Part shown: in pieces, positions 14,830-64,000 of the stretch | How positions within the stretch are numbered: position 1 is the stretch's first letter | How the letters are laid out: every line of letters starts with the position of its first letter | DNA from: Marisa cornuarietis | Lineage: Eukaryota; Mollusca; Gastropoda; Architaenioglossa; Ampullariidae | Direction: 5' to 3' | Assembly (NCBI GenBank): GCA_004794655.1 | Contig: SMMW01000585.1 | Coordinates: 11,247,501-11,311,500, forward strand | DNA length: 64,000 nt | The notes under the pieces: model-generated | Database searches by the model: none | What the model was told of the DNA's origin: nothing | What the model saw: the letters and a program-made list of their open reading frames with translations, nothing else | Program-made: the position numbers and the translations under genes

Positions 14830-17800
14830 ATGAGGGTTTTAAGAAGATGCGGGGCTCTGTTTATTGTTTTATTTCTTGTCATCGGACGCATGGGAGGATC
14901 AAGGTAAGAAGAGCACATAATGTAGTTCCATGTAATGTTTAGTCTCAGACTGTTGCTGTTGTCTATGTTCCTATATGAGAAAAAAAAAAACTAAAGCAAA
15001 TTGTTTTCTTCTCGTGTAAGGAGTTATTAAGTTAGCTGTTTTGTTTTTCATAAGGCAAACCAAACGCAGACGTAATCAAGATTTGTGCTTTCTTGAATGT
15101 CCAGTAAGAAAACGACCATCTAAAAATGAAGATCGCCTTGACACAGCAGGCTGTTAGTTTTGTACTGCACTATGCTTTGAAACATACTGTGAAGGGAAAT
15201 TAAATACTAAGTACATGTAATGATAATTTTATTTTTTAGATCCCTATCATGCTTATCAGATTGGGGAGCTGCTAAAAATGGAGGTAACTTTTCTATTATT
15301 TCTGCATGCTTCGGTATAACCATGCTTACACATTTGTTCTATGTACCTCTAGTCAGCATTCAGCATGTAAATAACAACAATATAGTCTTGTTCTTGTCAA
15401 TAATGTAATGAAAAGGAACGTTGAAGAGTTCGCATTAACGAGGCGTCTATCTTCTGAGGATCGTTTGTGGTCAGCACTGATGGTCTTAACAGGGGGCGGG
15501 TGGGAATGGCGGGGAGGGGTTGTGTTTTGTGGGCTGCAAGCAGAAGTAGTATGGATAGGAAAGATTCGGAAAATTGTATTCAGTCGATCCGTGCGATGAC
15601 ATTCGATGGCGGCTACTTGAATATCCAGATCGGTACCACAAAGCGAAGTCATTGTTGGATGTAATGCTTGTGACGGATTTGCTAGGGTCAGATGTTATAA
15701 AATGGTGTCATGAAATTTCTTTTTAACGACTCTTGGAAACGGACTACTTAATGCACTACATTTTCTATTACTTTTAAATATATATATATATATGGATAGG
15801 TATGTACGTGTACATAACACACACACACACACACACACAGGAGGAGGATGTTGTATGTTGTAGCTTTAGTGGTTAGTGCGCCTGTAAAGTCAAAGGTTGC
15901 TGTCTGTGTGTGTGAAGGGGGATGGGGTGGTGGTTTACTTTTATTTTTCCACCGATATAATATTCTCACAGAAAAACATGATATAGATGACAAACTTAAT
16001 TTGTATGTCTTATTTTTTGTTGTTTTTACAAGGCAACTGCACATTTGATGTAAGTCTCTGCGGCTGGATTAGTGACTACAGCAAAGTCTGGGAATGGACC
16101 GCGAAAGGTATGCATCTATAGATGCATGTATGCAAATATAATTCCCTTTAAAGCAATACAAAATCTTACTGTATTATCTGTTAACTACAGCTGTTCTTCA
16201 GCAAGCGCGAAGAGCAGTTGATAGTACATAAAGAGTTTCTGTTTAATTAATAAGCTTATAATCCTCGCTGGTGTTACAAAGGACGGGGGTTATTTTGTCC
16301 TCTAGAGTCAGTTGCTGTAATGAAGAAGATTTCAGTCTTGGGCAACAAGGCCTCGATGACGAGCCCACAACTGTGTGAGACGTCATCAGGACCAGTGTGC
16401 CTGCGAATGCGGTATAAAATGAATTCAAGTAGAAGCAGAGGCAGTGGCCGGAAGCTGTCCATAGAACGCTGCACCACTTCATGTGTGACGCTGTGGTCAA
16501 CTACTAAAGTGACCGCTAATCAATGGCAGGCCATCAACGTATCTGTTGAGACGAGCGGCCCTTTCACAGTAAGTTCAAAGTGATGTGAGCCGACACTAGA
16601 GTGTCACGCGCACATGAAGACAATCACGCACATGCACACGCACACTCAAACAAACATACGCACGCAAGCACGCAAAAAGTCACATTATCAGTGGTTGAGA
16701 GAGTGATGAGACGCAAAAGAGCAATACCATAGTAGAAAGACAAAAAATCTGCCTTGCATAAATGCCCATATGATTCTGAGATAAAACAAAAAACGTGTTC
16801 ACATAACGCATTTCATGTTATTTGTTACATTTTGATACTGTAACTTCCTCCCTGTCTATCAATGGAGAGAAGCAGTTCTTTAATCTAAGAGTTGCTAATG
16901 CTTCTGCACACTTAAATTTCATCAGTAATTAGACAGTGACTTTTGCTTAGTTGCGATCAAAAACTTATTTTTCTGTTTTTTTATCTCTAGTGTGGTCAAA
17001 ATGATTAAATCGCGGCTTAAGTTTTTTTCAGTCAACTCCTCGTTTCTCTATTTTACAAATACAATTATACTGTAGTTAAGTTTCATTGGAGCATGTGTTC
17101 TTTGAGTCTTTCTGGGTAATGTTTGATTCTGCTCCTCCTAAACAAATCTTTTAGTCAGTTGCATGAGGATCAGTTGGATGTAAAACCTAAGAAGACTATA
17201 TTGTGCTTTAATAGAAGGTAGAAAAAAAGCGACAAAGAGAAACAAAATATTTCACACTTTCTTTTTTTAGTAAAATTGTATTCGAACCAGGACCACGAGA
17301 CCCTTTTTATATGTCAACAGATTCGTATCACTGGAGAAACAAGCTTTTTTCCCGGAGATCCTCAAATTTACCTTGACGATGTTACTTACACGAATACGCC
17401 ATGTAACCAGACAAGGAATACTCGATCTCTGAACGGTACTACAACTATAGATATCAGCACTGACAGGTCCACTCTTTCTGGCCCCGTGACAAGCATCACA
17501 TCTACGTCTCAAGGACCGACACAAGGCATGTTTGGGAATGTCAATAAAATAACATTGACTTTCGGACTTTTGCTTTTCTCTCAGCATGCGTATATATGCA
17601 AAATGGAATACAATATGTGGAAAAGAAAGTAAGTGTCAGAAAATGAGTAGGGCAGGCGTGCAGGTGGACAGACAAAATAGCAGGTAGACAACGAATGGTG
17701 GCAAGAAGGAATCGATGACACAAGCAGCGCGAACACAACAGAAGAACGATGCTTTTGATTTTGAAATGTTCTCCTGTGGTATGTTGCCATCGAGGTTTGT

Positions 17801-18964
17801 TGTGTACGTTCTATAGTCCCTCTGCCGGCCATTTAAAAAAAAAATTACACAATACACTTTTTAAATGTTGCTGTACATGACTTTGTTAAAAAGTGTAGAG
17901 GTTTCTTACTGGTTCTTGTTTATTATAAACAGTATGTAAGCACCAGTTTAATGGCTGAGAAAGTTTTGACTGGTTCATTTTTCCTTCTGGAGGCAAAGCA
18001 AAAAAAAAAGTGCGCGTGCAAAATATGACTGATTTGAAATGTATCCAAACTGAGATCTGTGTAGGACGCATGATAAAGAAATATACTGAAAACTTGTGAG
18101 ACGGCCATTGACGTAAATTCTTTTTGCAAAATTGTAGAAACTGCCCTGGGGGTCGAGAGTTCTCACGAAGTAGTGGACACCGCGGTGTCGACCGGTACTG
18201 CTGCTGCTGTTGTCGCCATCGCCATGGTCATTGCTGCCGTCGTCGTAGTCGCTCGATACTACATCAGTAAAGGCTGTTGCAACAGGAGTCTGCTTCAGTA
18301 AGATTTTTAGAATCTTCCATTTTCGTACTTTATTTTTTCAGTGATTTTATATTTGTTTGCTCGTTTGTTCGTATTTGTTTTGGTTTTTTTTTTTACTTGC
18401 GTTTTTTGTGCATATATTTTTTTCGTACCTTTTGTTTTTGCGTTTTTGTTTTGTTTTTGTGTCATGTAACTTTTCCAGTTTTGATTTTGTTTTTCTATCG
18501 TCTATATCTTTTTGTGCGTGCGTTATGTTACATTCTGTGGCATTCTTAAGTGGACGTTGATAATGGATAATGATAGAGAGAGAGAGATGATGGCAGACAC
18601 AAATAGACGGTCAAATCTTTCTCTGTCAGCTCTGTCATCCTCACTCGGTTCTGTCAGTTCTTTATTGAAAGTCTCATCACTTTTTCTTTCATCTCCTGGT
18701 TCCACAACCTCTGCCTAGGGAACAGGAATAGTCTGGTCTCACTTGTTAATATCTGTTCCAAGATCACCGGAATCAGGCAGAGGGCTTTGGCAGCTTTCTC
18801 TCATCAACAAATCCTTAGGAAAGCATCCAGTATTATCTTTACTTCTGATCATGTGTTGACACGTGAATTCTCACTCTTTCCTGTTGTTTTATTTTTTTCT
18901 TCTCTTCTCTTTTTGCTGCGCAATGAGCATTCTTTTGAATGGATACCTGCGCATTACCAATGGA

Positions 18965-19026
<62 letters not shown>

Positions 19027-19103
19027 ACTTGTACTAGCCTGAAGTGACCTAAGGTTGCCACCATATCTACTGTTGCTAGGAATGTATGTGTGTATGCGCG
19101 CGC

Positions 19104-19139
<36 letters not shown>

Positions 19140-20405
19140 AAATAATTATTTCAATATGTATACATTGTCTCCTTTATATCATGTGTATGTTTTTATTATC
19201 TCCTTTTATATCATGTATGTATTATCTCTTTATATCATTTAGTACGAGCACTATTTGGAATTTCCCGTGGGAATAAATAAAGTGGTATTGTATTGTGTTG
19301 TAAACACGGGTTGCCATTAGTATGGGTCACAACGATCAAAACGAAAAAAAAATTGTTAAAGAGCGGACTCGACCCTTTGAAAGTTCAGGTCTAAGGACCG
19401 ATAAACTATAAAGAAGACGAAAAATCTTTACTGACGCTCTCAGTTTTATACAATCTCGTCATCATAAATCTCACTTTAAACAATCTCATCTTCATGCAAT
19501 CTCATCTTTATGGACTGCCATCTTCAAACAATTATGCCGTCAAACAATCAAAGTTATACAATCTCGCCTTCACAAAAATTCTCATCTTTAAACAATTTTG
19601 ATGCAGGAAGAAACGTTCAATTCGAAAGCAAGCTGAAAAAAATCCTCCAAACACAGCCTTTAATCAACTCTACAACATGATTGGTGAGTACAGTTTACAC
19701 AGCCACCAAAAATGTTCCAGATGGTCGCCAACGTCAAAGTTAGCCAATGAGATCTCTTTTTTTTTCTTTCCTTTTCCATGCATTCATCCAACTGTCACAA
19801 CCTCCAGTTATTCGTCTTATTTTTTCTCTTCCTCATTTTATTTTCTTAATTTTTATCAAGTTCTTCTCCCATAATCATTTACCAAATTTATTTACGCTAA
19901 CCCATCTGGTGTTTTACTGCAGTAATTCTTTTTAAAATAATAAAAAGAGCAAGTCCTGCAGCATGCAAGATGTAAAACAACTAAGTACAGCAAATGTGGG
20001 CTTCAATTATAATCATCTGAACTGTCTACGATTTCAGGTTTTAACCGCAACAGCAGCTGTCGTTCCCAGGAAATAAATAGTATACGACATTTGCCAGAGG
20101 ATGAACCGGAAGTGAATATCTACTCCGACATCGAGTACATCGACACGACCTTTCCGAGACGTAACCAAGTTTCAGTAATGGACAGCGCCAGGTCCTACTG
20201 GGTCAGTGAACGTGTGCAAACCTCCAGCCTGGTGGCCATGGCGTCGTCGATCCAATCTGAGGCGACAGGGGAGACTATCTATCAAAACGAAGACACTAAG
20301 GAGCACTTGGCGAAGGAGTTTGGTCAAGACTCGAGTGATCTGACGCCTTGTGCAGCAGAAATGAAAAGGGAGAGGGTGTACCAGAATGTAGATACGAGTC
20401 TGTGA
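14830..20405 (+). CDS. MAM-domain type I transmembrane receptor MR-A (8 exons, 421 aa)
   Basis: Exons 14830-14903, 15240-15283, 16033-16107, 16306-16568, 17321-17525, 18138-18297, 19607-19683 and 20038-20405 join in frame. The order is: signal peptide (core LFIVLFLVIG), Cys linker (SLSCLSDWG), MAM-like domain at about residues 40-180 (CTFDVSLCGW to IYLDDVTYTNTPC), Ser/Thr-rich stalk, and TM helix at about 241-259 (AVVAIAMVIAAVVVVA). The cytoplasmic tail has Tyr motifs YNMI, YSDIEYI, YQNED and YQNVDTSL at the C terminus. YxN sites are the general Grb2-SH2 type if phosphorylated. Intron 5 uses a GC donor at 17526. The MAM part is the most divergent of the array, while exons 6-8 nearly match MR-B. 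AATAAA lies at 20545-20550. Receptor function is inferred from architecture; the ligand is unknown. Confidence 0.82.
15779..15839. repeat. (AT)n and (CA)n microsatellites in MR-A intron 2
   Basis: AT run at 15779-15793 and CA run at about 15817-15839. Confidence 0.9.
18870..19026 (+). repeat. Dispersed retroposon end with (ATC)n tail, copy 2
   Basis: T-rich run, then GCGCAATGAGCATTCTTTTG and a GCGCATTACCAATGGAC block leading directly into about 21 ATC units (18964-19026). Same family as 6655-6782 and 48104-48290. Lies in MR-A intron 6. Confidence 0.75.
19107..19134. repeat. (GA)n microsatellite
   Basis: About 13 GA units in MR-A intron 6. Confidence 0.9.
19250..19305 (+). repeat. Retroposon 3' tail (AATAAATAAAG-type)
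   Basis: The segment CCCGTGGGAATAAATAAAGT followed by GTATTGTATTGTG units looks like the 3' end of a non-LTR element. Only the tail is visible. Confidence 0.4.
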
Positions 20406-22277
20406 AGACACGGCGCTTGTATCAAATCTTGACGCGATTTTCAGAGTCAGGGTTCTTGCTTTGTAGGATAAATAAGACCACGCAGTCAAAAGTTGTGTTG
20501 ACATTCTGGCATCGGGTGCTGAGCACCCCGCTAGTTTCTAGCTGAATAAATAACTAGTTCAACAAGCGGTTAGCAGGGAGGGAGAGGAAACCGGAGTAAC
20601 CGGAGTAACCGGAGAAAATCCCCGACGCCCAGCCCTACGGACAGGTTTCACATACCGAGAGTGTCCCGAAACGAGATCTGAACCCTGATCGAGTTTTTTT
20701 CACTGCAGCAGTGACAAGATAAGCGAGGCTTGCGTCAGTTCTTTCTTTCAACACAAAACAAACGATCTGTCTGTGGGTTTTCCAACTATTAATCCAAGAA
20801 TTAACAACTAAATAGACAAAAGCTTTAACGAACCAAATCGTAGGGGAGACAACCAAAGGTAATCAACACTCTCTTTTAAACAATCCCTCTCGAACGCGAA
20901 CTCCTAGATTTATGCAGTCTTGTAATGACTTTCTTGGCACGGCGATTTCTTGACATCACGGTAATTGTCTCCCTTTCCCTCAAAATGTTATTATTTCCAT
21001 GAAAAAAGTTTCGTCTGATTCTGTCCAAGGATATCCAGACACTGTCTTACAGATAAAGAAATAAGGAAAGATCACTCACGTCACTCAAATAATACTCAAT
21101 GGAGCAACAGTTTTTTTAAAAATTCATCATCGGTACTGTTGTTTAAACTTCCGTAGATCATATGTTTGTTTGTACTTCTGTCCCTCGTATGTTGCTAATG
21201 TCTCGTTCTTAAGCGCTAAATCATGCTTCTTAGACCTGTGAGTAGGCATTATACAAATTTTGCGTTTATTATTATTATTACAGTGAAAGAGAATTTTATA
21301 TAAACATGAAGAAAAAAAAGAACCCACTCTGTTATTGACATGCATTAGTTAGTGGTGACTTAGCAGTAAGTAATCATTTTACTTCGTGTTTTGCAATTTT
21401 GAAGACAGACATCATTCTGCAACCGCTTTTTTCTCGGTGAACACCGCGAATATAGAAGCAAGAAAAAAACATTTTAAATATGGTGTGTATTTTAAACGCT
21501 TGGGAGACCAAGAAAATGTACTTTTTTCTTCATAGTTTCCAAAATAAGAATATAATTGAGTTTTAAAAAACTGGTCTCATGGCGTTTTGTTTTTTATTTT
21601 CCTGTGTTTATTTTACGATGTGTACACTGGAATTAGAAAGTAAATGATGGTGAATGGACGATTCTGCTTGACGTGTTATTGGTATAAAAGATTTAAAAAA
21701 TACGACTTAAAGTGTGGAGTTGTCCGTGAAGACTTATAAATATAAATTTCTTGATACTAACAGCCAGTCACTTTATTTGATTAAAGTTATTAAACAATAA
21801 CACATCAGAGTTTTTTAGTATACTGATGTATGTGTGTCTATTTATGTACGTGTATCATGTGTATATGCATAGGCGCATTAACACTTCAATTTGAAAAATT
21901 AACTTTGATGAAATGAATGGGCAAGAGAGTTGATAAGTTTAATATTAACAAAACTGAAAAGAATGTACCCAAAGAAGGAGTTTAATTTCCCACCGAAAAT
22001 CTAGCGAAAATCCTCTTTCTGTGGCTGTAAGCGGGTAGATTCTGTTGTTGCATTATTTTAACTGTAGTGGCGCAGAAATACTCAGAGCTTCAGTCTCGAC
22101 GACTGCTGGAAAAAGCCTGTGGCCTCCATTATTCCATTTTAATTTCAGGACATGAAGAGTCACGTTGCTAAAGTTTTTGCCCGTCTTCACGATGAATCAT
22201 TAGGTTGACTCAAAGTATGCGGACTGTTGGTGTCACTTCACATAACATTTCACTTCCTTCATCAGAGTTCAGTGACG
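20406..22277. other. MR-A to MR-B intergenic region (copy 1 of the duplicated spacer)
   Basis: Holds the MR-A 3' UTR, a LINE-type tail with (ATT)n at about 21205-21285, and a long segment (about 21320-22277) that matches the MR-B to MR-C spacer. No coding region. Confidence 0.6.
21205..21285 (+). repeat. Retroposon 3' tail with (ATT)n
   Basis: AAGCGCTAAATCATGC, then a GGCATTATACAAATTTTGCG-like end and ATT units. Similar layout to other LINE/SINE tails in the window. Confidence 0.5.
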
Positions 22278-29523
<7,246 letters not shown>

Positions 29524-31259
29524 AGAGATGGCGCCTGTATCAAATCTCGACATAATCTCCACAATCAGGGGCGGGGTTCCTGCTTTGTATGATGAATGAC
29601 CTGACGCTGTCCCAAGTTGTTTTGACATTCTGGCATCCAGTGATAGCAACCCACTAGTCTCTAACTGAATGAACAACAAGTTCAACTAGCGGTTAGCAAG
29701 GTCCAATGAAGTTACCCTCTGTTGTGCCAAAGTAGTCTTCTCCGGAAAGAAGATTGAATATAAGGAAAAGAGAAAACCACTCTGTTCTTGACATGCATTA
29801 ATCAACGGTAACCTAGCAGTAAGTCATCATTTCCCTCCGTGTGTTGCAATTTTCAAGACATAGACTTAATTCTTCTACCCCGTTTTTCTCGGTGAATTCT
29901 GCAATTAAAGAAGAAAGAAGAAAACATTTAAGAAACGGCGTGTATTTATAAACGCTTGGGAGGCCAAGAAAAAAGTACCCTATTTTTCTCATACTTGACA
30001 AAATAAAATTATGATTGATGGACTTTAAAAATGGTACCATGAGGTTTTGGTTTTGATTTGTGTATGTTTCTTTTATGATGTGTATGCTGAAGTTAGAAAG
30101 TAAGTGATTGATTGATGATTGAACGATTCTGCTTGACTTAATCTGTTGTTCAGACAAATGGTATTGGTATCAAAGATTAAATACTACTTAAACTGGTGTG
30201 GAGTTGGGGCGTGAAGACGGCAAAACATAAAACTTCTTGATACTAACAGTCACTTTATGCTACTAATATTATTACTAAACAATAACCCTTAAACTGATGA
30301 TGGGTGTATAATGAATTAATAATGCCAAACAGTGAAAACATGCACATTTAAAAGAACACAGAAAACCCGCTGACCCAGAGAGTAAAGATAAGAGTAATGT
30401 AGCTATCATGAAAAGAGAAATAATTCTCGAAGTGTAGAAGAGAAGGGAAGAGGAGACAATATCAATCCTTACTTGGAGCAGTGTTCACTAACTTGCATAT
30501 CACGAATACTTGTTCACAGGCACCTATACATGCATGCATGATTTCTTAAGTGTACAGGTGTATTTTTGTCTATTTATGTACGTGCATTACGGGAGCATAT
30601 TAGCTATTTAATTATTCAAATATTAAACATCGATGAATGGACAAGAGAGTTGAATAACATTAACAATACTGAAAAGAAAGTACCGCAAAGGTACGTGTTG
30701 AAGTTTCTGTACAATATCTTGCAAAAATCCTGTTTCTGTGTCTGTAAGTGCGTAGATTCTGTTGCTGCACCATGAACTGTGCGGGTGCAGAAATATTCAG
30801 AGTTTCAGTCTAGACGGCTGCAGGAAGTCTGTGGCCTCCATTACTCCGTTTAATCTATGGGAGGCGGATGGCCGAGTGGTTAGAGCGTTGGCGTCCGAAC
30901 CGAGAGCGCGCTGGTTCAATTCCCGATAAGTGCAGCAAACTTCCCCCAGCTGACGGAAATGGGTACCTGACTCCATAGAGGGTTGAGGAAGGTAAGGCAG
31001 CGAGGAGGAGGAGATTGGCACCACCCTCATGTAAAAGCTGGCCCCGAGAAAAGTGGGGTCTCTAACACCTCACTCCCCAACGACCTGAAAAGGTAATGGG
31101 ATGACCTTTACCTTTACCTTTAATTTATGACATGAACAGCCATGTTGATAAAGCTTTTGTTCGTCTTCGTGATGAATCATTAGGTTGGATCTCACAATAT
31201 ACTGACTGTTGGTGTCACTTCAGATAACATTTAACTTTCCTCATCAAAGTTCAGAGACA
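29524..31259. other. MR-B to MR-C intergenic region (copy 2 of the duplicated spacer)
   Basis: About 29780-30250 matches the MR-A to MR-B spacer (for example the CTCTGTT...TTGACATGCATTA and AAACGCTTGGGAG blocks). It also contains the SINE at 30860-31118, which the other spacer copy lacks. No gene. Confidence 0.65.
30860..31118 (+). mobile_element. tRNA-derived SINE, copy 1
   Basis: The 5' end is tRNA-like, with an A-box (TGGCCGAGTGGTTAGAGCG) and a B-box (GGTTCAATTCC). The body then reads CTTCCCCCAGCTGACGG...AAAGCTGGCCCCGAGAAAAG and ends in CTTTACC repeats. It is flanked by near-identical 11-bp duplications (TTTAATCTATG at 30849-30859 and TTTAATTTATG at 31119-31129). Other copies lie at 39166-39442 (+) and about 54460-54686 (-). 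It is not a functional tRNA gene: there is no closing acceptor stem. Confidence 0.9.
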
Positions 31260-31862
31260 ATGGCTGCCTTTAGTCTGTTGTCACTTGTGTGTCTGAACCT
31301 GTGGGAAGTCACGTTGTTCGGAAATTGTGCTGCAATGAATAAGAGGTTAGGGATTGTTACTATAAAACTACTCATACGCACTTCCAGTATTCTGTCGATA
31401 AAACACGTGATTTACTCGATCTCTTTAACCTTCAGAAAGGGAGACATGGTAAGACTGTACTGTTTATGTGAGTCTTGTTTGAAAGACACCGACAGCGTCC
31501 AGCGAGGGTTTTACAAGTTTTCTTGTTGTTTATGTTACACCAGCACCGTAGTTGTTACGAAGGTTTCACCACTGATCAGCAAGTATATCAACTAATGGGC
31601 GGTTGAAAGAAGAGCTCTCAAACTCTTTTGGCTCTGAGCTTTGCAATTTATAAGCTGTTAAGAAAGCCAAGTGTGTGTAAAATATGTCTCCTTGTCCCTG
31701 TTTCCTACGATGCTGTCTGTAGGCGTAATCCTGTGTGCAACCAAGTACGCAGTGTAGATGTGAAAAGGTTCAAGGTTATTTATTCTTTATTCCGTGTTAC
31801 AATATAAAACATATGTAACGAAATTATACCTATAATAAAGAATATATTCTCTCTCTCTCTTT

Positions 31863-31922
<60 letters not shown>

Positions 31923-32721
31923 GTCCTATTCTCATATGCAGTCTCTCTCTCTCTCCCTCCTTCACTCACACACTCTCAAACACACACACACTCTCTCTCT
32001 CTCTCACTCACTCACACTCTCACACACTCACTCACTCACTCAAATTGGGTAGGACATGTATTCAACTGTTCGCTTATTCCAAAATTTCATGCTCTGTCAT
32101 CTTATTCTAAAAGTCTACAGTGTTTGTTTCCTTTTCTGTGATGGAACTGACGGAAAAATATACATTGTTCTTACGTGTAATATAAATCTTTTTTTCTGTG
32201 GAACCGCTTAGGGAAACCTGCTATCAGGGTTACACTCGCGCCGACAGCGGAGGTAGGTGACGTGGCCTCAAAAGCTGTTGAATTCCCTAATGTCCTCTAT
32301 TATGATGATGTAGTGACTTCTGTCTTTTTCATGTGTCATTTTTGTTGTATATTGTTTTCTGTGCAGGTTACACATAAGTAAAGCATTTTATACACGTCTG
32401 TCCGGAGACTATTTTCATATCAGAGACACAATGTAAAAAAAACCACGTGGAATGTATACAAACTAACCAAATGAGATTTATGGACAGACACTGATTTTAA
32501 AAAAACGATTAAAACTAATTTAATTTCATGGTGATTGAAATCACCATGTTTTGTGCTGAGTTTTAATTGTAAGCAAGTAGAAAGGGATCGTTGTAACAGT
32601 CACTACGTAAAATAACGAAGTATGTTCTCCTGTTTGCAGGGAGTTGCTCATTATTTTAATAAAGGTCATTATTGTGACTGGGAAAGCACTGGCCTCAAAA
32701 CAAAATCGTGAGTCAACAAAA
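31260..32721 (+). pseudogene. Truncated, frameshifted MAM-receptor copy MR-C (exons 1-3 only)
   Basis: Exon 1 at 31260-31345 (MAAFSLLSLVCLNLWE) and exon 2 at 32212-32252 (ETCYQGYTRADSG) are intact and nearly equal to MR-B. Exon 3 at 32640-32721 is 82 nt, not a frame-preserving length. In the required phase it reads GSCSLF and then hits two stops. The usual TKWEVN end is also changed to a stop-containing form. Homology to MR-B continues into intron 3 until about 32888 (matching about 24357) and then ends. No MAM exon 4, TM or tail exon follows before MR-D. Confidence 0.8.
31850..32045. repeat. (CT)n/(CA)n/(CTCA)n low-complexity region
   Basis: A CA run at about 31866-31917 is flanked by CT-rich and CTCACA-type repeats. 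Lies in MR-C intron 1. Confidence 0.9.
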
Positions 32722-33904
32722 GTAAATTATTTGTCTTGAATAGTTGTATAATTCTTAACCTTTTAATGTGTTGAACGTGATGACATCTGCCTCATCAACT
32801 TCATCATCATCGTTGTCATTATCATGAGACCCACCGTCGCCACCGTGGAATTTACCAGAACATCACTGTTGATTTCTGTGACATCGTCTGAGTATTTAGT
32901 TAAATTATGAAAACCGTATTTTTGTTTTATATCGTATATTATGCTTTGTTTTGTTTCGATGAAAGCTGTGGACACATTTTGCTTACCATTACCCACACTG
33001 GAGTTAGTGCTGAGATGGAATGATCTACAGGTTTTGCGGCCTAACTTTAAAGTTTGGTTAGAGTTTTGAATCCCAGTTATATCCTACGAGGAAAACGACA
33101 AGATAAACACTCTAAACAACAGGGACTCAGTATTGTGGAGTCTGCGGTTTACACTTGAGTCAGCAGCAGACGACTGTCAGCTGGACACACGGTGTGGATG
33201 ACTTGGTGTTGGACTGAGTTGCAGCCGATGAAGACGAACATCATGTTCGAGGTCTTCCCTGGCGCTGGGCAAAAACCTTTCACATTGTTTGCCAGATGTT
33301 GAGAGGGTTTGCCTGAGATCTTCACCATTTTTGAGTCTCTACAAAGCTGTGCGAGCCAACATAAACTGTAATATGATGCGTTAACACAGCAAGTTTAGGC
33401 CATTGAAAGTAAAGGTTCGCTGCCTCCTTGGTTCACGTCGATTGACCCATTGTTGTATCTGCTTTTGTTGATGTGGTTATCGTTCATGCTGTTGTTGATG
33501 TCACTGCAACTATTGCTGTAATAGGACAGATGACGATTATTAAGACGATTCCCAGAGATTGTGTGTCTGGCTTCATTAATTTTTATCCTTTGTTATTTTT
33601 ACAGAAAAATCAAGTCTTATTCTTAAATCGTGTGTCGGTATTTCGAGATTGTAATTTACGTTTAGTACAGTACCTGCTTCAACAGTAGAGACACATCTTC
33701 CTCAAATTAACACTTAGCCTAAAGCTACTCAAGAACTAACATATTAACGTTTGTACGAAATTAAAGTAAGTCACATAATTCAATACCAAAATGAAGAAAA
33801 TGTAATGAGGATTTGTCAAGACGAAAAACATACAGTACTAGACGATTTAAATGTTACTTTTTAAAAAAGTGATGAATGACAGATATTGCTATCGAGACAC
33901 TTTG

Positions 33905-35509: not shown

Positions 35510-45943
<10,434 letters not shown>

Positions 45944-48537: not shown

Positions 48538-51500
48538 ATGGCATTAAGACTGCCTTTCTTCATCGTTACCGTCACTGTCTGGGTCCGCCTCATCCTGTCA
48601 GGAAATGTTACAAGCGGTGGCAGGTTGGTGTGTATTAGTACAAACTCATCTGTCATGACACACTTTATGCTCTATGCAGAGAGTATGTCATAGTACGTGT
48701 ACTTTCATTTAAGTCAAAAACTCTGCCCATAGGCTTTGTGGGATGAGCCCTAAACTAAGTCAGTAAATTTCTCTCAGTTTCTCTTCTTCATTTTCTCTCC
48801 ATTAATGTTGGTTAAACACACACTGAGCATGGATCCTTTTAGAAGACCCAAGACAATATAATTATTACAGTGGTAGGGAAAATCATGCAACTCTGTTCCA
48901 AATAAGAAATAGCAGGCTCTAATTACAAGACTGAATTAAATAACTTCCCTGTAAAAACTGTCAAAACAATACCACACTGTTTCTCTAAAGTAGGGTTCAG
49001 GGGCCAGTTGCACATTTCTAATTTTAAACACTGTTAGGCCTTAACTCTATTTAGATAATTAGTTTAAAGTAAACACCACAATTTTAGAATTTTTAAAACT
49101 AAAACGTCTTTATGTATGATAAAGTTGTTTAAGTCTGACTTTCCGTCCTGTCAGTACAATTTTGTGTATGTTTTCCTGCAAAGAATGAAAATGGCTTAGA
49201 AGAGATTTTGCCTCGTTAGAACAGTTTTAAGGTTTAGAAACGTGTTGTGCAACTGGCTGCTGTCCCTTTTAGAAGTGTTCATGGTATCAAGCATCAAGCA
49301 TGTTACCGAGGCCTGATCACATCAAACATTACCCACGTCCAATGACAGCATCAAACATAATTAACAATGACAATTTTATGATCTCAGTTATTTCGAGTCT
49401 GCTGGCAGGTATTGGTCTGTCTTTCTGAGAAATGAAGCAATAATTACGAACACTTAAACCGAATTACTGCGGTCGGGTGTCTAGGCGCCGAGCTGACGGG
49501 TGAGGGTGGTAATCTATGTTGAGGTAGGACATAACACAATCACTTATTTTAACTAGACTAAAAATCGTCGTAAGAAGGGAATGATAATAATACAGACGGG
49601 GTGCTAAACCCACAAAAACAGCGGAAAATGTAATACTTTTTATATACCAATAAATAATAATTAAAAATAGTCATGCAGACTATAGACAATTCAAATATAG
49701 CGCAGTGAGCATGAACTTCCAGTGATTTTCTTGAGGTTTTTTCCCCGGATATTTTCAAACCGAGTTTAACAAAAATAAGTCAGTGAAATTACATAAAGAA
49801 TTGCATTGGAAGAATGACTATAATTTCTGGATGGTTCTGTTTTACCAAAGCCTTGTAGCGAGGTGAGTTGTAATCTGTGTTGTAACTTTTGTGTTAGGTA
49901 TGTGTCGCCGTTACCCAAAGACCTTCACTAAGGTTGAATGGTCTATGTTCGATGCACCTTACAGAGAGAATGTTCTTCTTCAAGGACTGAGTGGACTGAA
50001 GGGCTGACACTTGTGGACTAAATGACCCACAAGCCATTCACGTCATCATAGGCTTAATGAGTTACAAGAAACCTTTACACAGTTTAGAGCCGACCTTGAT
50101 TCTGAAATAAATCAGTCTGTTTTCTTCATGCACCAGATTAGTTGTACTTCACATGCATGCCTCAGTTTTTTAACATCCTGGAAAAAAGTTTCTGAAAGGA
50201 AAGAAGATATTACTGTAGATCTAAGACATCGTGCGAAAATTAAAGATTGTGGATTATGGATTAGAAATAAGAGATTAAAATCACTTCAAGCGTTATTTTG
50301 TTTATGCCAGAAAATTTCAAGAAAAAACATAAATTATAAATTTAAAATTAAATATTTTGTGAAGGAAATAATTTAATTTTACACCGAAAACACTGACCCA
50401 ATACAAACCCATTTAAGAAAATCATGTGTGGCGACCAAATCCGAAGCTAGAATTTTATAGGACTATTATTTTAAACGTTCATATTTTTATTTCTAAAATG
50501 ATCATTTTAATTAGATCATACGAAGCTTGGCATGACGATGAGTACATTATCAGCTTTCCTTATAACACTACAAGCGTTTTGTACTACCACCACGCTTAAT
50601 CATAGTACATACTGTGGAATTTTCACACAACAGGAAGCGGAAGTTGATTGGTGCTAACAAGAACCAATAGGAACGCTCGACATGTTACTTAAAAGAACTC
50701 ACGTAAGAGAGAAACTGGGTAAAGATACATTCATGCTTTCTCGTAACAGTTTATAACTACCGGTAATCGCTTCTTTTACGTATCTAATCTACAAAAATCT
50801 ATTTTTTTCTGTTGAATTCTTTAGTGAAAAAATGTGTTATCAAGGGAACACTGGATCTGACAACGGAGGTAGGTGTTTTGTCCTGAAAATTGAATAGTAT
50901 CTTAATTTTGTTGTTACTGCTACCATAATCATTGCTATGATTTTTGTGTCATTGATATATATATATATACAGAGATTGGATGGAATAGTTTTGTGTAATA
51001 TTTTAATACTTGTGTTCAGCTTGAATGAACTGATTCCTGTGATAACAAGTTTATAACAGAAGAATTTTCAATGCTATCAAAACTAGTTTACGATTACTAA
51101 ACTGCGGTACAGTTGGAGGCAGACTAACTAACCGACTATAGACATTTATTTATAGATCCAGCATGGCACATAGAAAAATAGACAGGAATTTTGCTTCAGA
51201 TAAAAATGATTTCCATTGCAGGTAGTTGTACTTTTAGTACGGGACTGTGTGACTGGAAAGAGACCGGAGTCAATACAAAATGGGAAGTCAAAGGTAACTG
51301 ATTGTTCCTGCATTTTAACATCTCACCTAAAACTTAGGCATGCTAGATACAAGACGGAAATATAATTATCATTGCCGACATGGCTGTCTTTCTTAACATC
51401 TTTGCAGACTTCATCGTCAGACTTATCGTCACTACAATCATTGTCACTGTCATCCCCATTTTATTAAAGACCACAAACCAAACACTGATCTCTGTATCAT

Positions 51501-52118
51501 TCATCAATCTACCTGCTTTATAACGGTGTATCATCACTTAGCGTCAGACCAGGCAGACCTTTACGAGATCGTTTTCTCGTCCTCTTTTTTCTCTTGAATG
51601 GAGTACTCCACACTTGTCTTTGTGAGACCGCTTCCGTGTAGAAGACTTCTTCTCGATATAGTTTGTTTGTTAACCTCTTAATCTATGGTTTGTTTCTAGA
51701 CCAAGAAGCGTATGCCAGCACGTTTGGGAAGTCTGAGGGAGCCAAAGCAATTCTCACCAGTCCGTGGATGTGTGAGGACAACGTCGTCACTATCTGCATC
51801 CAGTTTTATTACAAGTTTGATCACAATGACGGGGGACAACTGACACTCCGACTGTGTAACTCAACCCCAAGCTGTGACGATCTGTGGTCCGAGAAATCTC
51901 GTAACAAAAATGAATGGTCCTTATTCCAAGTCAACCGTAATCTCACCCTTACTAAGAGTGATTTTTTTCAGGTAAACTACTTTTGTAGCTTATTCGTCTC
52001 CTGTACCTCGATTCGTTTCTCATCAATAATTTTTGTCATGTTCTCTAATAGATAAAAGTGGATCTTACGTCGCGTGATCATACGGCTTGTGGCTTAAAAC
52101 ATAATAGTGATTCCACAG

Positions 52119-52194
<76 letters not shown>

Positions 52195-54022
52195 TTTAGA
52201 GGAGATTTTTTCTCTCCCCCCCCCGCTTTTGTTTTGTCTCCCTCACCCTATCGCTCGATATCTCCCTATTCATCTCATCTTATCTTTAACTTTTATTTGT
52301 GTCTCACTTGCATGATTCTGGTACCCAAATCGGCAGAAAGTGCCACACTTTACTACTAATAACCATATTCAGCTAAACTAACTTCGTCTGCAGAGAGAGA
52401 CTGAGAAAGCAAAGGAATATATTATCGGAGTGACCGTTCACTCGTAACCCGTGCTGACGAATAAACTTACGTTGAATTTCGTTTACTGGAATTTTACTTA
52501 TCTCCAACCACAACAGGCAAAGTGAAATATTTCTGTTATTGTTACATCGTACAAAGTGCTATATTTTTAGTGAGCAGCAGTTGGCTTGTCCCCAGCGACT
52601 ACGAGCAGGACTAGCTGGAATATTTTTTTTGAGTGCGTGGGTGTGCAATCAAGCAGTCCCGTTTGCTATATGTGTCTGTGTGTTGAAACATTTTATTTCA
52701 TCTGCACTAGTCATGAAACGTCAATTTCAGATACAGATTGAAGCCGAGAAGATACAAGATACGTGGGGTCGAGACACAAACTTCTACCTCAACGACATCG
52801 TCTACAAGAACACTTCTTGCACCAGCGAGCCTTCGGTGACACTCTCTACAAGACACCCCTTCTTGACGACCGGTGAGATGTTAACAACAGAAACTGATGC
52901 TGACTTTTTGACAACAAAATTGAGTAAGATACCATTGCCTCACTGGTACTTGCTACAATAGACAATCAGTTTTTGAGAGAGTGCAGCTTAAATCTTATAT
53001 TAATAATTAATACTTATATCGATATATCTCTTACTGATAATGTTCACAGCTCACCTATATTTTGTGTAACCGGTCATGCTTGTACAGCTTTGTGAGAAAA
53101 TGAGAAAACCAAGAAATTATTCGTTTCAGGCTGCAAAAGAGTCCCAGACAAAAAGAAGCCTGCATATCTGTAGGTAGAATGTTTAAATTTAAAGTAAGGC
53201 ATTTGAGATTTCAACTTCGTCCCTAGTCCGGCTTCTGATATTTACGATTTGGCTAAGTCACTGGTCCGGCTTGTTAAAGATAAGTTTTTTTTATGCCTCT
53301 TCACTGATTTGTTAAATCCTTCTACATCCTGCGAGTGTAGGCAGTAGCCTGTTAGGTGTAAATCTCATAACACAGACTAGTCAGGCCGGTGCCAAGACAT
53401 GTAAAGGATGATTCTTATTTTTAGCCCACTTTTCAGCTGACAGAGACGATGAACAAGGAAACAGTGATGCTAGCAGCAACGCCACAAGTGAGGAAGATTC
53501 ATCAAGGCTGTTAATGATCGCTGCAATCGTCGCAGTGCTCATGCTGACGGCAGCTGTCGTGGTTGTTGTTATATACTTCAGACGCCAGAGGGCAGACCGT
53601 GACGCTGGAAGCAAGTGAGCTGACGTTGAAATGTTTGCTGTTTGACTGGACGTTGCTTTGTTTTTTTGTTTTTTTTTAAAGCCTGAACATTATAAAGCTA
53701 GGTCGGGAAATATTTTTTCTATTTCATATCGACTTTTAAAAATTTAGAAGAAATCGACTATTAGACATACATAAAGCTATATCACTTACAGGTGTGCCTA
53801 TTTACACCTGTACATTTGTACGTTCCGACTTGCGCTGTATTAAAGCACAGGCTTGTGGCTAATGCCGTGAGAATCACAGGGTCCTCGACTGAGATCTTGC
53901 CTTAAGAAACATTCTCATTGTATGGTAGCAACGGCTTTATTATTCAGATAATAATGGATAAAATTTTGTATTGCTATTAAGTCGATATTGTGGCATTAAA
54001 AGCATAGTGTGAAACACCAGTG

Positions 54023-54082: not shown

Positions 54083-55493
54083 TTGATAATGGCAGTGCTG
54101 ATTGATAATAGTAAGATTTTTCTGTCCCATGTCGTATTTTTTAACACTTCCTGCCTACAGAAAAAGCTCCATTAGCAAAGATCCTCGGAGTTCTATAACC
54201 ATGATTACCAACGATCTCTACTTCATGACAGGTAAGTAACTGACAAAAAGATCGTTGACAGATGACATGTCTGTCCACTTAAACAAAATCTTTGAGAAGA
54301 AGAGTTATAAATTAACAGAAATTACCTAGACAGTCCGAATATATGCGTCCTAGGTGAAGCGCGTTTGCATTTCTATTGTTAATCATTTTAAATCAGGAAT
54401 AAACCTACACATAGCATTAACGTGAACAAACAGTCGTAAGAGAAGCCACATACAGGGTTAGGGAGTGAAGTGTTAGAGACCTCACTTTTCTCGGGGCCAG
54501 CTTTTACATGAGGGTGGTGCCAATCTCCTCTCCCTCTCTGCCTTACCTTCCCCAACCCTCTATGGAGTCAGGTACCCATTCCCGTCGGCTGGGTCGACTG
54601 GGGGAAGTATGCTGCGCTTATCGGGAATTGAACCAGCGCGCTCTCGGTTCGGACGCCAGCGCTCTAACCACTCGGCCACCCGCTTCCCCCCCCCCCCCAT
54701 GTCGCCGGGGAAGCAGTCGTCGCTCTGGGGTGGTTTGTAGACCGAGAGGAAAATTGATAACTAAGAGTGGGACGGGGGACTGGAGAGTGGAGAGTCCAAG
54801 GTATGCTGCGACTGTCATCTTGAGACCTGCTACTCATCCACAACCATAGACAGCGTAGACAGACTAAGACTTACGAAGCACTCACAGTACAATGGCAGTA
54901 TTAACAAATACCATAGCTAGGTTTGTGTGCATGTGTATGCGAGAGTGTCTGGAGGTTTCAGCGAGAGATGACAGCACTGTATGACAGCAGTGTGGCGAGA
55001 TTTTAAGTGACTGACCTCAGGTACCTGTAAACGTTGTGCGTTCGTAACGTTCCCTGCAACGTCTGTGTTAAGGTGGAGAGTAAGAGTTACTCATAATTGT
55101 CACCAACCTGCCCAGTTCCCCGGGGGGCCAGTGTTTCGCGTTTGACGAGAAAATATGGTATTTGTAACAGCCTTCGTAAATGTGCTGACAGGTGGTAATC
55201 AGTACACTGAGGACGGCATCCCTTTACAAGACCTGGACACTCCACAGGACCACGACACCTACTACTGTATGGTTCAGGACACGAACAGATGTCACGAGGT
55301 GTACACACAGTCAGACCCGGGTGGTCTCCAGCAACAGGGATGTGCTAACCTCGATGGGAGAGACACTTATGAGAATGTAAATCTTGACAACATTCACCCA
55401 CAATCTCGACAGCCACCAACCCTGGATATTTCCTCTCAGGACTGTAACGACCAACTACAGGAGGCTAATACTTATTGTAGTTATTGTCCCTGA
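48538..55493 (+). CDS. MAM-domain type I transmembrane receptor MR-E (8 exons, 405 aa)
   Basis: Exons 48538-48623, 50825-50868, 51222-51293, 51700-51971, 52731-52923, 53437-53614, 54161-54231 and 55192-55493 join in frame. The signal peptide core is PFFIVTVTVWVRLIL. The linker is CYQGNTGSDNG. The MAM-like domain runs from SCTFSTGLCDWKETG through LTSPWMCEDNVVTICIQ to FYLNDIVYKNTSC (about residues 44-188). A Thr-rich stalk with a possible NAT glycosylation site precedes the TM at about 247-270 (LLMIAAIVAVLMLTAAVVVVVI) and YFRRQR. The tail is of D/E class: NDLYFMT, TYYCMV (fits TxYxxV), EVYTQ, DTYENV and a Tyr/Cys-rich end. Exon 6 has a second in-frame acceptor 12 nt upstream (53424). AATAAA lies at 55590-55595. 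Intron 1 holds a short MITE and intron 7 a SINE. Confidence 0.85.
49000..49257. mobile_element. MITE with terminal inverted repeats, short form
   Basis: Starts GGGGCCAGTTGCA and ends TGCAACTGGC. 258 bp, no coding capacity. It matches the right-hand end of the long element at 43027-44453 in opposite orientation. It lies in MR-E intron 1. Confidence 0.8.
52121..52193. repeat. (ATG)n microsatellite
   Basis: About 24 units in MR-E intron 4. Confidence 0.97.
54022..54080. repeat. (AAT)n microsatellite
   Basis: About 20 units in MR-E intron 6. Confidence 0.95.
54460..54686 (-). mobile_element. tRNA-derived SINE, copy 3 (reverse)
   Basis: Reverse complement of the family at 30860-31118. The B-box complement GGAATTGAACC and the A-box complement CGCTCTAACCACTCGGCCAC are both present near the right end. 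A run of C follows at 54687-54698. It lies in MR-E intron 7. Not a functional tRNA gene. Confidence 0.88.
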
Positions 55494-57800: not shown

Positions 57801-60030
57801 TCGTTTTTACGGTGCTGACTCTTTGACCAGCGGTCCCTTAGCCGACGAAGCGCTCATCTTTGAGGCATTCAAGACAAGGAAGTGATCGTCACACCAGCGA
57901 ACAAAGTCAGGAAGAGCGCCACTGTGAACATGTTCATTATCATACAGAAGAGACAGGAGGGCAGAATCATCAGTAAATTTTATCAGAATTCTCCTGTCAG
58001 TAGTGCTTCTACAACTGTTAGTATAGAGTATGAACACCAGTGGAGACAAACAGCAGCCTTGAGGGGAACCTGTACAGGTGACAACAGGGTCTGAGAGAAG
58101 ACCGTTAACAGAAACTCTCTGCTGTCTGTTTGTTAAAAGTCCAGAATCCACACAGTTAGTTGGTGGGAGAGATGGAAGTCTGAGACTAACAAATGAGGTT
58201 GCACAGTGTTAAAAGCAGAAGAAAAATCAGCAAAGTGAAGCCTGCCATGAGATTTAAGTTTCTCCAGATGTTTGTACAGCGTGTTAAGTGTAAACAGTTT
58301 AGCATCATCGACACCTCTTCCAGGTCTGTAGGCAAACTGCAGCTGGTCAAGATGTTGATCAACAGCAGTCATAACCTCGCTCCTTACGATTTTCTCAAGT
58401 GATTTCATGATGAGTGAGGTAAGAGCGACTGGTCTGAAGTCGTTAGGTTGACTGGGCCTAGTGATTTTCGGGACAGGCACAATGTGCGAAAGTTTCCAAA
58501 TATCAGGAATATGACCAGACTCTACAGACAGCTGGAATATATGTCGTAAAACTCCGCTAAGTTGTTCGGCGCTGTGATGGAGGGTGCGTCCGCAGATCCA
58601 ATCTGGACCCGGACGGAGCCTTGTTAACATTTACTCGCCTCAAGAGATCTTTGACAGGGGACTGGGCAATCACCAACCCACCCTCAGGGACCAGAGACTG
58701 TTTTAGTGTGGAAACATTGAGAGAGAAGTCATGTTTCTCAAAGCGGGCATAAAAAGAAGTAAGCACTTTGGGAAAATCACACTCATCGACGTCTGCAAGT
58801 GCCACTGATTTTTAAGAGCATTTTCCTTGCGGTTAACAGAGGACATGTTCTTAAAACCATACCATGCTGCCTTTAGGTCACCACAACTAAATTGCAGCTC
58901 AACTTTATCCTTGTACCTTATCTTAGCCTCTCTAATGGCATCCCGCACCTTCCTGTTCGCTACTTTTTTGTCATGAACAGTTCCAGCATAAAATAGACGC
59001 TTCTTATTATTTAGAACAGATTTGAGTTCCTTTGTCACCCAGGGTTTATTATTAGGAAAGATGACATTTTCCTTAGATGGTATGACTGTGTCAACACAGA
59101 AAGTGATGTAGGAAGACACAACATCAGCCACGTTATCTAGATTGTCACTGGAATTATAAAAAAAACTTGCCAGACTGTTTTACACACCGGCGCCTGTTGT
59201 GGTACGACGCTCCAAGCGATGGTAGGCGTCGAGCTTTGTACGCGCCGGGGACACTGCCGTACCAAAGGTCAATAGTCGAATTCGTCTGTGTGGTGGAGCA
59301 CGATACATATTGCTCATAGCCTTTAAGTATCCCAGTGAGCTGGCAATGATTATTAAAATCACCAAGGACAAACTTAGGTGCGTCCGGACAGATGGCGTCC
59401 AGTCTGTGTATCACGTCGGCAATCTGGTGAGTGGCGGACTTTGGGTTGGCCCGAGGGTGTATATACACAAGTGTGTAGAACAGCTGAGGGAATTCTCTGG
59501 GGAGGTAGTAAGGACGGAGGGAAATGGACTGCAGTTCAAGATCGGTGGTACACAGTCGTTCCCTGACCACAGCATTTCATTCATTTAAGTAAAAACACAC
59601 GCCCCCGCCGGTCCAGTTGTTGGTAATAGTAGGACATCTGTCCATACGAATGGGATGACCAAACCCGCTGGCATGTAAATCATTGTCGTTGTCGGGATCC
59701 CTCAGCCACGTCTCGGTGAAAGCAAGGAGACACGTTTCTTTGAACTCCCGCAGGCATCTTACATTTGCCTCGAGCTCGTCGACTTTGGATTGAACATTGG
59801 AAAGAATAACAGACGGTATTGGTGGAGATTTATGTCTGTCATTGAAATCGAACTTTCTCAGCCAACGCTGAACTCCTCCTCTCCTTCCTCTCTTTCGCTT
59901 TCTCTTATAAAGTACAACCGAGTCTTGAGGTACGATATCAGTTGGAAAGTTGGAAGTGTCAAGGTGGAGGGTAGCCGAAGACGGGAAGAGTGCGAGAAGG
60001 TTCTCATGACTGTTCAACATAGTGGAGGCC
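57800..60030 (-). mobile_element. Degenerate CR1/Rex1-type LINE with endonuclease and RT regions
   Basis: Read on the minus strand from 60020 downward. The endonuclease N-terminal part (LLAFTETWL, GGGVCFYLNE) and its C-terminal part (VLGDFNNH, then GAYKARRLPSLGAS) are in one frame, broken by a single TGA near 59575. A linker with NKPWVTKELK follows. RT boxes are WKLSHIVPVPK, NDFRPVALTS, QFAYRPGRGVDD, DFSSAFNTV, TGSPQGCCLSPL and FTDDSALL. Several frame changes show it is inactive. It lies antisense between MR-E and MR-F and belongs to a different family from the 3240-4400 element. Confidence 0.88.
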
Positions 60031-61068: not shown

Positions 61069-61409
61069 ACTTTCCTGCTTAACTGTCAAAGTCACAACAT
61101 CCAACATGCACTTGAAAGCGGCATTTTCTCCTAATCATAAAGTTACTTTGCCTACTCGTTCGAAAGATAGAAACTGCCTCCTGCTTCGTCAGGTTGAATT
61201 TATTTCTGTGCAAAGCGCGCTGAGTAACAAATGGAGAACGAAAGTAAAGACCAAAGAGCGTGTTCGAATTCCTCTGTCCCGCCTAGTCAGCAAGTGGACG
61301 GAGGAAACTGTCACGACAGAAACAAGTCCTGCGGCACAGATCCTGTGTACTTGGCACTCAAACTGTACAACAGACGACTATCACGCGAGCTCGCACTCGG
61401 AACTTCCTC

Positions 61410-61448
61410 GTGACGTCACTGTGTCAGAGGTCAAGCTGCATCTGACGA
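61410..61448 (+). promoter_or_regulatory. Candidate shared upstream element of MR-F
   Basis: GTGACGTCACTGTGTCAGAG and following bases match 47764-47800 upstream of MR-E. It includes a perfect CRE-like TGACGTCA. It lies about 1.1 kb upstream of the MR-F start codon. Confidence 0.3.
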
Positions 61449-62454
61449 ACCCCAGACATTGTCTTTCATTCGGCAGATGATTGTGAGATATCCACATTTT
61501 TGTAAGCTGCCTGCACTTTCTTGGAAATCTTAAGCTGTAAGTCATGTTAAACTTACTCTTGGTAAACCATCTTTATTTCAAAATTAGGGCATGACTTAAA
61601 TATTTATTTCCTCTTACTATTTTGTTTACTTCGCCACATGAGGATTTACACAGTAAGTTGTTATTTTTGTTGACTAAAGGTTGCTTCTGCTGCTCATCAT
61701 TCTGTAAACACGCTGATACTTGGTTTGTGACGCCTTTTACTGTAACTTGTCATATGACATTGTAAAATTTAATATTAATTTTATTATTACTTAATATTTC
61801 ATATAGTATTTTACTCAGTTTATTAATGTATATATTCGTTTTGTATTATAATTATTTATTTAGAATCATTTATTATTATTGTGATTTTCGGAGCTGGTCT
61901 TGAGCGTCATCACTTTCTCAACCAATGTTTCTTTTGTTTTCATGACATACATCTAATGTGGATCATAACCGTTTGTCGGTCATCCTCGTTAGGAAACTTC
62001 TTTTTTTTCAAATCGACAGTAGAGAGCCAGCACAGATGTAGTCTGATAGTGTCTACGGTCTACGCCCTAATGTTCGGATGATTCATCTTTCATTTGACTA
62101 TCTTTGCTGACATTGCACATCTGTGTGAAACTAATCTTACTGTGGCCGTTAACATGATGCTCTAACAAGAGTTGTGATTATGGAACCAGGTTTCTGTCTG
62201 CGAAAGTTAAGCCACTGAACCCGAGATCTAGAGTTGATATTCTATTCAAACATCATAATAACTTTTTGCTACTTTTAAAAACAGAACTTTATTGACTTAC
62301 CGAAGATTTCATGCAATGGCAAGGTTACTGACTGCATCTGTGTTGATGGGGTTCACCTACTTAACATGAGTGGCTGCTTTATGGAGTCACACAATAATCT
62401 CATTGCTTTTTTAGATCAACGCCCATTATTTTATGTTTCTGTGTTTTACCTTTT

Positions 62455-62530
62455 TGGTCAAGTGCTTTGAGACTGCCTTTGATGGTGGGGTAAACGCTAT
62501 ATAAATATACATTATTATTATTTATTATTA
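62455..62530 (+). repeat. Retroposon 3' tail with (ATT)n
   Basis: CAAGTGCTTTGAGACTGCCT, then AAACGCTATATAAATATAC and ATT units. CR1/L2-type 3' terminus. It lies within about 40 bp of the MR-F start codon and so may form part of its promoter or 5' UTR. Confidence 0.6.
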
Positions 62531-62569
62531 GAGACCTCAGAAAATTTACTTGCATTCAGATTAACATCA

Positions 62570-64000
62570 ATGGCGGCGATTGTACCTTTCATCAACGTTG
62601 CCATGACATTTTGGTGCACCCAACTGTTTGGATATTTGAGAAGTGATGACAGGTGAGCGTGTATTACTACAAACTATTATAACCACCAATATTTCGTGGC
62701 TTCATTTAATGCACAAAAAATCCTTTGTTCAGATTATTTCTCGTTCGTTGAGGAGAATAGCAAATCATTCATAAACAACTTACAGAGGACCGCAGGTGAA
62801 TGAGTTTGGGGTAGGGCGTGCAGAAGGATAACAATTGTGCAAAAATGTAGAAAGGTATTGTTAAGTGCTTCTTTAATACAAAATGTGCTTTTCTATTTAG
62901 AATCTCTTGTTTGATTCCTTTACCTCGAATGATCTTAATCTGTTAATTGTTTTAGTGAAGTCTGTTATCAAGGAAACACTGGGCAGGACAGTGGAGGTAG
63001 GTGTTGTCTTTTTAATATTGTGTTGCGTCATCATGATGCTCCTTCTATTTATACAGATTGTATAGATTAATAGCATGTGTAGCATTATAATGCTTCTGAT
63101 TATATTTATACAGATCGTATGGATTAATATTATTTTATAGTTTGGTGCTGTTTTCATATAGACATGTACTGCTTCTGTAACAATATGCTGGATTTAAACT
63201 GCTGTATAAACTGAATGGTATAGGATAGCTGACTAAACAACAGGCAGAAAAATGACAAATTGATGTCTAGATTAACAGAAAGACAGTGAAACAAAGAAAT
63301 AGGTAGACATTTTATTTGACAACAATGTTCTCTTTTGCAGGCAGCTGCACATTTGACAAAGGTCATTGTTGTGACTGGGAGAGTACTGGATGGGTAGTCA
63401 ACGAAAGTAATTGCTTTACTTTTTTTGCATTTTAGAGTGTTTTCCGTATGATCCTTATTTGTGCTGGATATCAAGCATCGCTATCTTTGTCATCGCCACT
63501 GACATCATCTTAATCTTCTTACAGTGGTACCCTACACAAAAGTCTTCGTGATATCACACGAGTACATGCCACCTCTGTCTCAGTTTCGTGGCTGTAGTTT
63601 TCTCGGTCTAACGTCTTTTAACTGTTTTTCCCAACTTCACTTACAATGCGCTGCGGATTTCACAAGATCGCTTAAATAGAGGACACAGTCTTTTATGTCG
63701 GTAAATTGGATGACAGTTGTTAAATGACTCGCGACAGAACAACACGAGAAACACAACTAGTGGAATGACGCTTTACCGTCGACCATTGCAGGATCTGACA
63801 ATCAGTTGACAATCAGTTGCTGTGGAGTAGTAAGAAACTATTAAATGTCTGGAACGTGCTAGTGATGTTGCCCGCTTATCTTGTTTTTATTTTCAGACAG
63901 AGAAGCTTTTGCTGACATGCAGTGGAGGTATCAGGGAGCCACAGCTGTTCTCACCAGTCCCTGGATGTGTGAAGACAACGTCACGACGATCTGTGTCCAG
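62570..64000 (+). CDS. MAM-domain type I transmembrane receptor MR-F (5' part; runs off the window)
   Basis: Exons 62570-62652, 62956-62996, 63341-63406 and 63897 to beyond 64000 join in frame with the array's phases. The signal peptide core is VPFINVAMTFW. The Cys linker is CYQGNTGQDSG. The MAM-like start is SCTFDKGHCCDWEST, which has one extra Cys. The next exon opens NREAFADM and reaches LTSPWMCEDNVTTICVQ at the edge. No stop or frame break is seen so far. The rest of the MAM domain, TM and tail lie outside, so the tail class is unknown. It is closest to MR-B in this region. Confidence 0.8.

Follow-up and report, generated by a model that had tools for sequence, protein, structure and literature searches.

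A 64,000-nucleotide stretch of the genome of the apple snail Marisa cornuarietis (assembly GCA_004794655.1, contig SMMW01000585.1, forward-strand positions 11,247,501 to 11,311,500; hereafter the window) carries a tandem array of receptor-like genes with one MAM domain each. On the sequence evidence, these genes are read here, with moderate confidence, as a single array encoding type I single-pass receptors in which a lone MAM domain would mediate recognition, tyrosine-containing tails would signal, and the two parts would have evolved as modules. This explanation is built on direct observations, namely reading frames that stay open through splicing, hydrophobic segments and a MAM domain in the encoded proteins, two types of transmembrane (TM) segment and tail, and a gene, B, in which the halves of two clades are fused. 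The receptor family is real and apparently undescribed; a literature search, with most subscription papers outside its scope, found no description of a lone-MAM receptor family. A first-pass annotation of this DNA had claimed that no named family uses a lone MAM domain as its whole recognition module, and neither Pfam, database matches nor the literature searched contradicts this. Positions below follow window numbering, and repeat units are lettered A to L.

The array was assembled by self-comparison of translated frames, after which splice sites were read at the exons. Repeated exon types recur in order on the plus strand, and units A, B, D and E (14830-55493) each splice into a single open frame of eight exons, yielding proteins of 421, 418, 359 and 388 residues, respectively. 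These four genes share the intron phases 2-1-1-0-1-2-1, a pattern identical in all seven open genes of the array, and their junctions are GT-AG with the sole exception of the GC donor of A intron 5. The join between A exons 5 and 6 at this donor is also present in a protein model from the snail Pomacea canaliculata (P0007). Chance open frames are ruled out by a test in which the exon geometry was slid round the array: no gene kept an open frame in more than 3 of its 20,000 trials, and some of those few may be near-zero shifts. The identical phase pattern of seven genes, together with Pomacea models that join the same exons, likewise rules out that the exons belong to different genes.

Each of the A, B, D and E models has a hydrophobic N-terminus and a second hydrophobic segment, and stalks contain 26-41% serine and threonine over the seven open genes. 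The layout first proposed for these genes (signal peptide, cysteine linker, MAM domain, Ser/Thr-rich stalk, TM segment and tail) is borne out by open eight-exon frames and by MAM matches above cut-off. The accompanying count of four complete genes holds for A, D and E. The frame of B is intact only with an exon 3 acceptor 4 nt downstream of the one that aligns with its paralogues, and the exon so shortened lacks the first MAM strand and one cysteine. Unit C, initially called a pseudogene, is indeed a remnant that keeps only its first two exons and an exon 3 with a broken frame; no later exon was located before D, and it is hence without TM segment or tail.

The Pfam profile for MAM (PF00629) scores 51.1, 36.3, 28.9 and 41.7 bits in A, B, D and E, against a cut-off of 26.4, and exceeds the cut-off in six of the seven open genes (A, B, D, E, F and H); L has no match at E 0.001. 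Fold comparison also points to a MAM jelly-roll. Searching the four proteins with PF00629 and comparing folds thus support the earlier view of one MAM domain, divided over three exons, in A, B, D and E. No other Pfam family exceeds its cut-off in these genes, and matches of the stalk and TM segment to TMEM154, which fell below the TMEM154 cut-off, were taken as compositional. The MAM domain, the single-pass layout, the presence of one gene per unit and the clustering are therefore supported by the hidden Markov model, fold comparison, intron phases and independent Pomacea models. The array genes differ from known MAM proteins in what accompanies the domain. Searches of A, B, D and E up to E 10, and of F, H and L up to E 0.001, found neither the Ig, FN3 and phosphatase domains of type IIB receptor phosphatases (PTPRM, PTPRK) nor the protease (astacin), MATH, CUB and discoidin domains of meprins and neuropilins.

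The TM segments and tails of the array fall into two unrelated types: A and B carry type 1; D, E, F, H and L carry type 2. The trees of the two protein halves conflict. The MAM tree sets A apart with P0007 and places B with the rest; unlike the MAM tree, the TM/tail tree groups B with A. Gene B consequently consists of one clade's MAM domain fused to the other clade's tail. In a second Pomacea protein, P0004, a type 1 tail likewise follows a MAM part resembling that of B (80% over exon 4), so the chimera is either older than the divergence of the two species or has arisen twice. In nucleotide comparison, the similarity of A and B starts in intron 5, takes in the 3' flank and extends into the following unit (B matching C); it comprises eight aligned pieces that link 17720-24357 with 27314-32890. 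The 5' halves of A and B give no DNA match at E 1e-8. This pattern fits what a tandem duplication with its breakpoint in intron 5 would leave. Homogenisation of the A and B tails within the species was considered and dropped, as the TM/tail tree does not join A with B. In the pair H/L, synonymous divergence (dS) is 0.043 in the tail versus 0.232 in the MAM domain, and DNA identity runs 75, 80 and 85% from 5' to 3' in three long pieces, with a 113-base upstream piece also at 86%. The H and L tails may have been homogenised within the species.

Eight further 10 kb stretches read beyond the window extend the array to about 109,000, with no additional units found up to 143,200. F, which the window edge truncates, is complete past it, as are H and L. 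A stop interrupts exon 5 of G, whose exons 6-8 were not found; unit I consists of a tail alone and has a stop in exon 7, J is disrupted in its TM exon, and K is a fragment of exon 2. The six genes counted at first were thus too few, for F is followed by G to L, giving 12 units, seven of which are open over eight exons. Searches of the whole 534 Mb assembly (572 contigs; E 0.01) matched B exon 4 in 8 places and A exon 4 in 5, all inside the array; the two sets of matches combined amount to nine copies of exon 4.

Protein homologues were found in Pomacea canaliculata only. All are uncharacterised or hypothetical, one being labelled only MAM domain-containing and another, P0005, which belongs to the same MAM family, carrying the unrelated automatic name cell wall integrity and stress response component 2-like. 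The remaining members of the family are P0001 (LOC112560623), P0002 (LOC112560025), P0003 (LOC112560621), P0004 (C0Q70_04882), P0006 (C0Q70_04876) and P0007 (LOC112558824), several of the Pomacea models being partial. The closest matches of A, B, E, F, H and L reach about 67-74% identity, in some cases along most of the protein and in others along part of it, with counterparts of A, E and H/L at about 69-74%; D matches P0002 at 44% over its whole length, lower than the other genes. Apart from a 60-residue N-terminal extension, P0002 aligns over almost its full length with D, E, H and L. P0007 is likely the orthologue of A. Its N-terminal 26 residues match a sulfotransferase open reading frame (ORF) upstream of A (13650-13727, 96%), which suggests that the gene order beside A is probably common to both snails. 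The first 207 residues of P0005 are 79% identical to P0002. P0005 itself joins a long Thr-rich stalk and a third stalk/TM/tail type to the MAM half of the family, and a local search of the 143 kb stretch did not find a tail of this type.

All exons in the window lie on the plus strand and, unless other support is named, follow from the splice model. In A, exon 1 (14830-14903) encodes the signal peptide, with a Kyte-Doolittle (KD) peak of 1.81. Exon 2 (15240-15283), the cysteine linker, was chosen by its length of 44 nt, phase and one cysteine, agrees with E exon 2 in phase and cysteine position, and is outside the coverage of any Pomacea model. The MAM domain follows in exons 3 (16033-16107) and 4 (16306-16568), within a PF00629 match spanning protein residues 42-181, and ends in exon 5 (17321-17525), which continues into the stalk and has the GC donor; P0007 matches its junction. 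Exon 6 (18138-18297; stalk end and type 1 TM segment) has junctions matched by P0007, exon 7 (19607-19683; juxtamembrane) is also based on the Pomacea comparison, and the type 1 tail exon 8 (20038-20405) is 84% identical to the B tail and 71% to that of P0004. B comprises exons 1 (22278-22363; signal peptide), 2 (23629-23669; cysteine linker), 3 (24070-24126; shortened MAM part 1, acceptor shifted by 4 nt), 4 (24656-24927; MAM part 2, PF00629), 5 (26859-27054; MAM part 3 and stalk), 6 (27780-27939; type 1 TM segment, dS 0.22 to A exon 6), 7 (28473-28549) and 8 (29156-29523; type 1 tail). The C remnant retains exons 1 (31260-31345), 2 (32212-32252) and 3 (approximately 32640-32707).

D is arranged in the same way, with the signal peptide in exon 1 (35510-35592), the cysteine linker in exon 2 (36163-36203), MAM parts 1 and 2 in exons 3 (36611-36685) and 4 (37185-37456; PF00629), MAM part 3 and stalk in exon 5 (41768-41906), stalk and type 2 TM segment in exon 6 (42803-42962), then exon 7 (45281-45351) and the type 2 tail in exon 8 (45705-45943; also motif analysis). 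The corresponding exons of E are 1 (48538-48623), 2 (50825-50868), 3 (51222-51293; PF00629), 4 (51700-51971; PF00629), 5 (52731-52872), 6 (53437-53614; type 2), 7 (54161-54231) and 8 (55192-55493; type 2 tail, also motif analysis). F begins with exons 1 (62570-62652; signal peptide), 2 (62956-62996; cysteine linker) and 3 (63341-63406; MAM part 1), and the window ends in its exon 4 (63897-64000, on to about 64168; start of MAM part 2).

In the proposed mechanism, the lone MAM jelly-roll on its short Ser/Thr stalk would bind a protein or cell-surface ligand on another cell, on self or on a microbe. Receptor clustering would then lead a cytoplasmic tyrosine kinase to phosphorylate conserved tail tyrosines, and the phosphotyrosines could recruit SH2 adaptors, of Grb2 type at YxN, with TxYxxV sites in some tails; Grb2-type binding at YxN and the meaning of TxYxxV sites are general background. 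The two tail types would give different outputs. The array would evolve by unequal crossover, for which intron 5 would mark the border of the recognition module with the signalling module, so that MAM variants could be recombined with tails.

Phosphotyrosine docking at the tails is plausible from their motifs, which were counted in eight tails (the seven open genes and P0002) and compared with shuffles. YxN occurs in seven of the eight, being missing from D. The consensus forms of the immunoreceptor tyrosine-based inhibitory motif (ITIM) and switch motif (ITSM) are [SIVL]xYxx[IVL] and TxYxx[VI]; ITSM-like sites are present in E, H and P0002 (3/8 tails; shuffle p 0.043-0.054), and the A, B, D and L tails carry neither motif. 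The tails, described at first as tyrosine-rich, are so to a modest degree (3.9-6.5% Tyr).

Several points weigh against the receptor reading. Four tyrosine columns in the type 2 (D/E-type) tail do exceed its other columns in conservation (permutation p 0.014), but the test was picked post hoc and uses six related rows. The strict ITIM is found in F only (1/8 tails), YxN is individually not significant (p 0.057-0.47), and counts of YxN and ITIM are mostly within chance. The immunoreceptor tyrosine-based activation motif (ITAM; YxxL/I x6-12 YxxL/I) occurs in none of the eight tails; with TM cores that are uncharged, by eye, in all seven open genes, this rules out pairing with ITAM-type adaptors. 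What stands of the SH2-type tail claimed earlier is accordingly the conserved tyrosine columns. The TM/tail tree pairs A with P0004 (90/90), not with B, and so does not support homogenisation of the A and B tails within the species. The protein searches require shared exact 5-residue words, one of them scoring the best 7,997 candidates, and distant relatives elsewhere may be missed. Finally, B lacks its first MAM strand and may be decaying, and 5 of the 12 units are broken or fragmentary.

The damaged MAM exon of B and the broken units would suit an array of duplicates in decay that retains little function, as would the ratios of nonsynonymous to synonymous divergence (dN/dS, by NG86) in H/L, which rise to 1.05 for the TM exon and, at a dS of only 0.043, to 1.77 for the tail; for the MAM domain of this pair the ratio is 0.60. 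We nevertheless regard decay as very improbable, given seven open eight-exon frames, Pomacea counterparts for A, E and H/L, and a dN/dS clearly below 1 in the majority of the other pairs and regions compared. In the MAM domain, the ratio is 0.36-0.46 in five pairs (D/E, E/F, F/L, E/L and B/F) and not computable for A/B; in the tail, it is 0.34 for A/B, 0.44 for E/F and F/L, 0.59 for E/L and 0.68 for D/E, with B/F saturated. Pairs other than H/L and A/B lie at dS 0.7-1.0, where ratios are rough, and amino-acid constraint is seen in most comparisons. It is also unlikely that the proteins serve homophilic or heterophilic cell adhesion, as in tissue or gamete recognition, through the MAM domain, the tail being mainly a trafficking or scaffold element: such adhesion receptors add Ig and FN3 domains, which Pfam does not find in A, B, D or E, and the joining of two different tails to MAM domains of common descent speaks for a tail of some importance. 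Endocytic or scavenger receptors, in which the MAM domain would bind cargo and YxxPhi sites in the tail would recruit AP-2, seem a quite unlikely alternative. All eight tails have 2-3 YxxPhi sites (expected 0.9-1.5; p 0.035-0.46), but YxxPhi overlaps the SH2 consensus, and the counts do not discriminate. The MAM domain of insect scavenger receptor-C binds a protein that the receptor then internalises, and CCP and somatomedin B domains lie beside it in Drosophila SR-CI and Spodoptera SR-C (PMC6191154); neither domain was found in A, B, D or E at up to E 10.

Sequences around the array are of other kinds. Pieces of Sulfotransfer_2 genes (PF03567) lie upstream at 5052-5972 and 12867-13898 (plus strand), and part of the latter is fused to the A orthologue in P0007. 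A reverse transcriptase fragment (PF00078) lies between E and F at 58133-58630 (minus strand). The ORFs at about 3342-4136 (plus strand) and at 10781-11089 (minus strand) are alike and presumably retroelement-derived; the former has no Pfam match at E 0.01. Long simple repeats in introns (25967-26357 and elsewhere) produce spurious long ORFs. About 8 Mb from the window, the same contig holds a large multi-MAM gene cluster (C460:2138110-3060238, minus strand) with many single open frames of 1369-1858 amino acids, each with several MAM repeats. A genome-wide PF00629 search gave at least 155 matches from the best 150 of 749 candidates; those listed all fall in this cluster, which makes the search uninformative on the window array.

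A recognition role, either immune or in allorecognition, is the most likely one for receptors of the predicted design, and the immune label, as a guess, would fit the clustering and turnover of the array. Vertebrate paired receptors (KIR, PIR, LILR) occur in tandem arrays with diversified ectodomains, more than one tail type and a chimeric gene. The snail array resembles them in each of these respects and differs in that MAM replaces the Ig or C-type lectin domain, with no ITAM and no charge in the TM core. A bolder reading, held here as less likely than not, is that ampullariids possess a lone-MAM receptor repertoire in which a fixed intron is the site where recognition modules are recombined with two or more signalling tails. 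Such a repertoire would be a counterpart, of independent origin, to the vertebrate paired immune receptors; we know of no such use of the MAM domain. If this is true, a small receptor family, to date observed in apple snails only, would rely on a lone MAM domain for all of its recognition, and the array would display, in one DNA stretch, the swapping of ectodomains and tails by unequal crossover at intron 5. It would also offer a case for asking whether gastropods assembled a paired-receptor-like system on a fold that is neither Ig nor lectin; the seven open genes, two tail types and one chimera form a defined set open to direct expression, mutation and assay.
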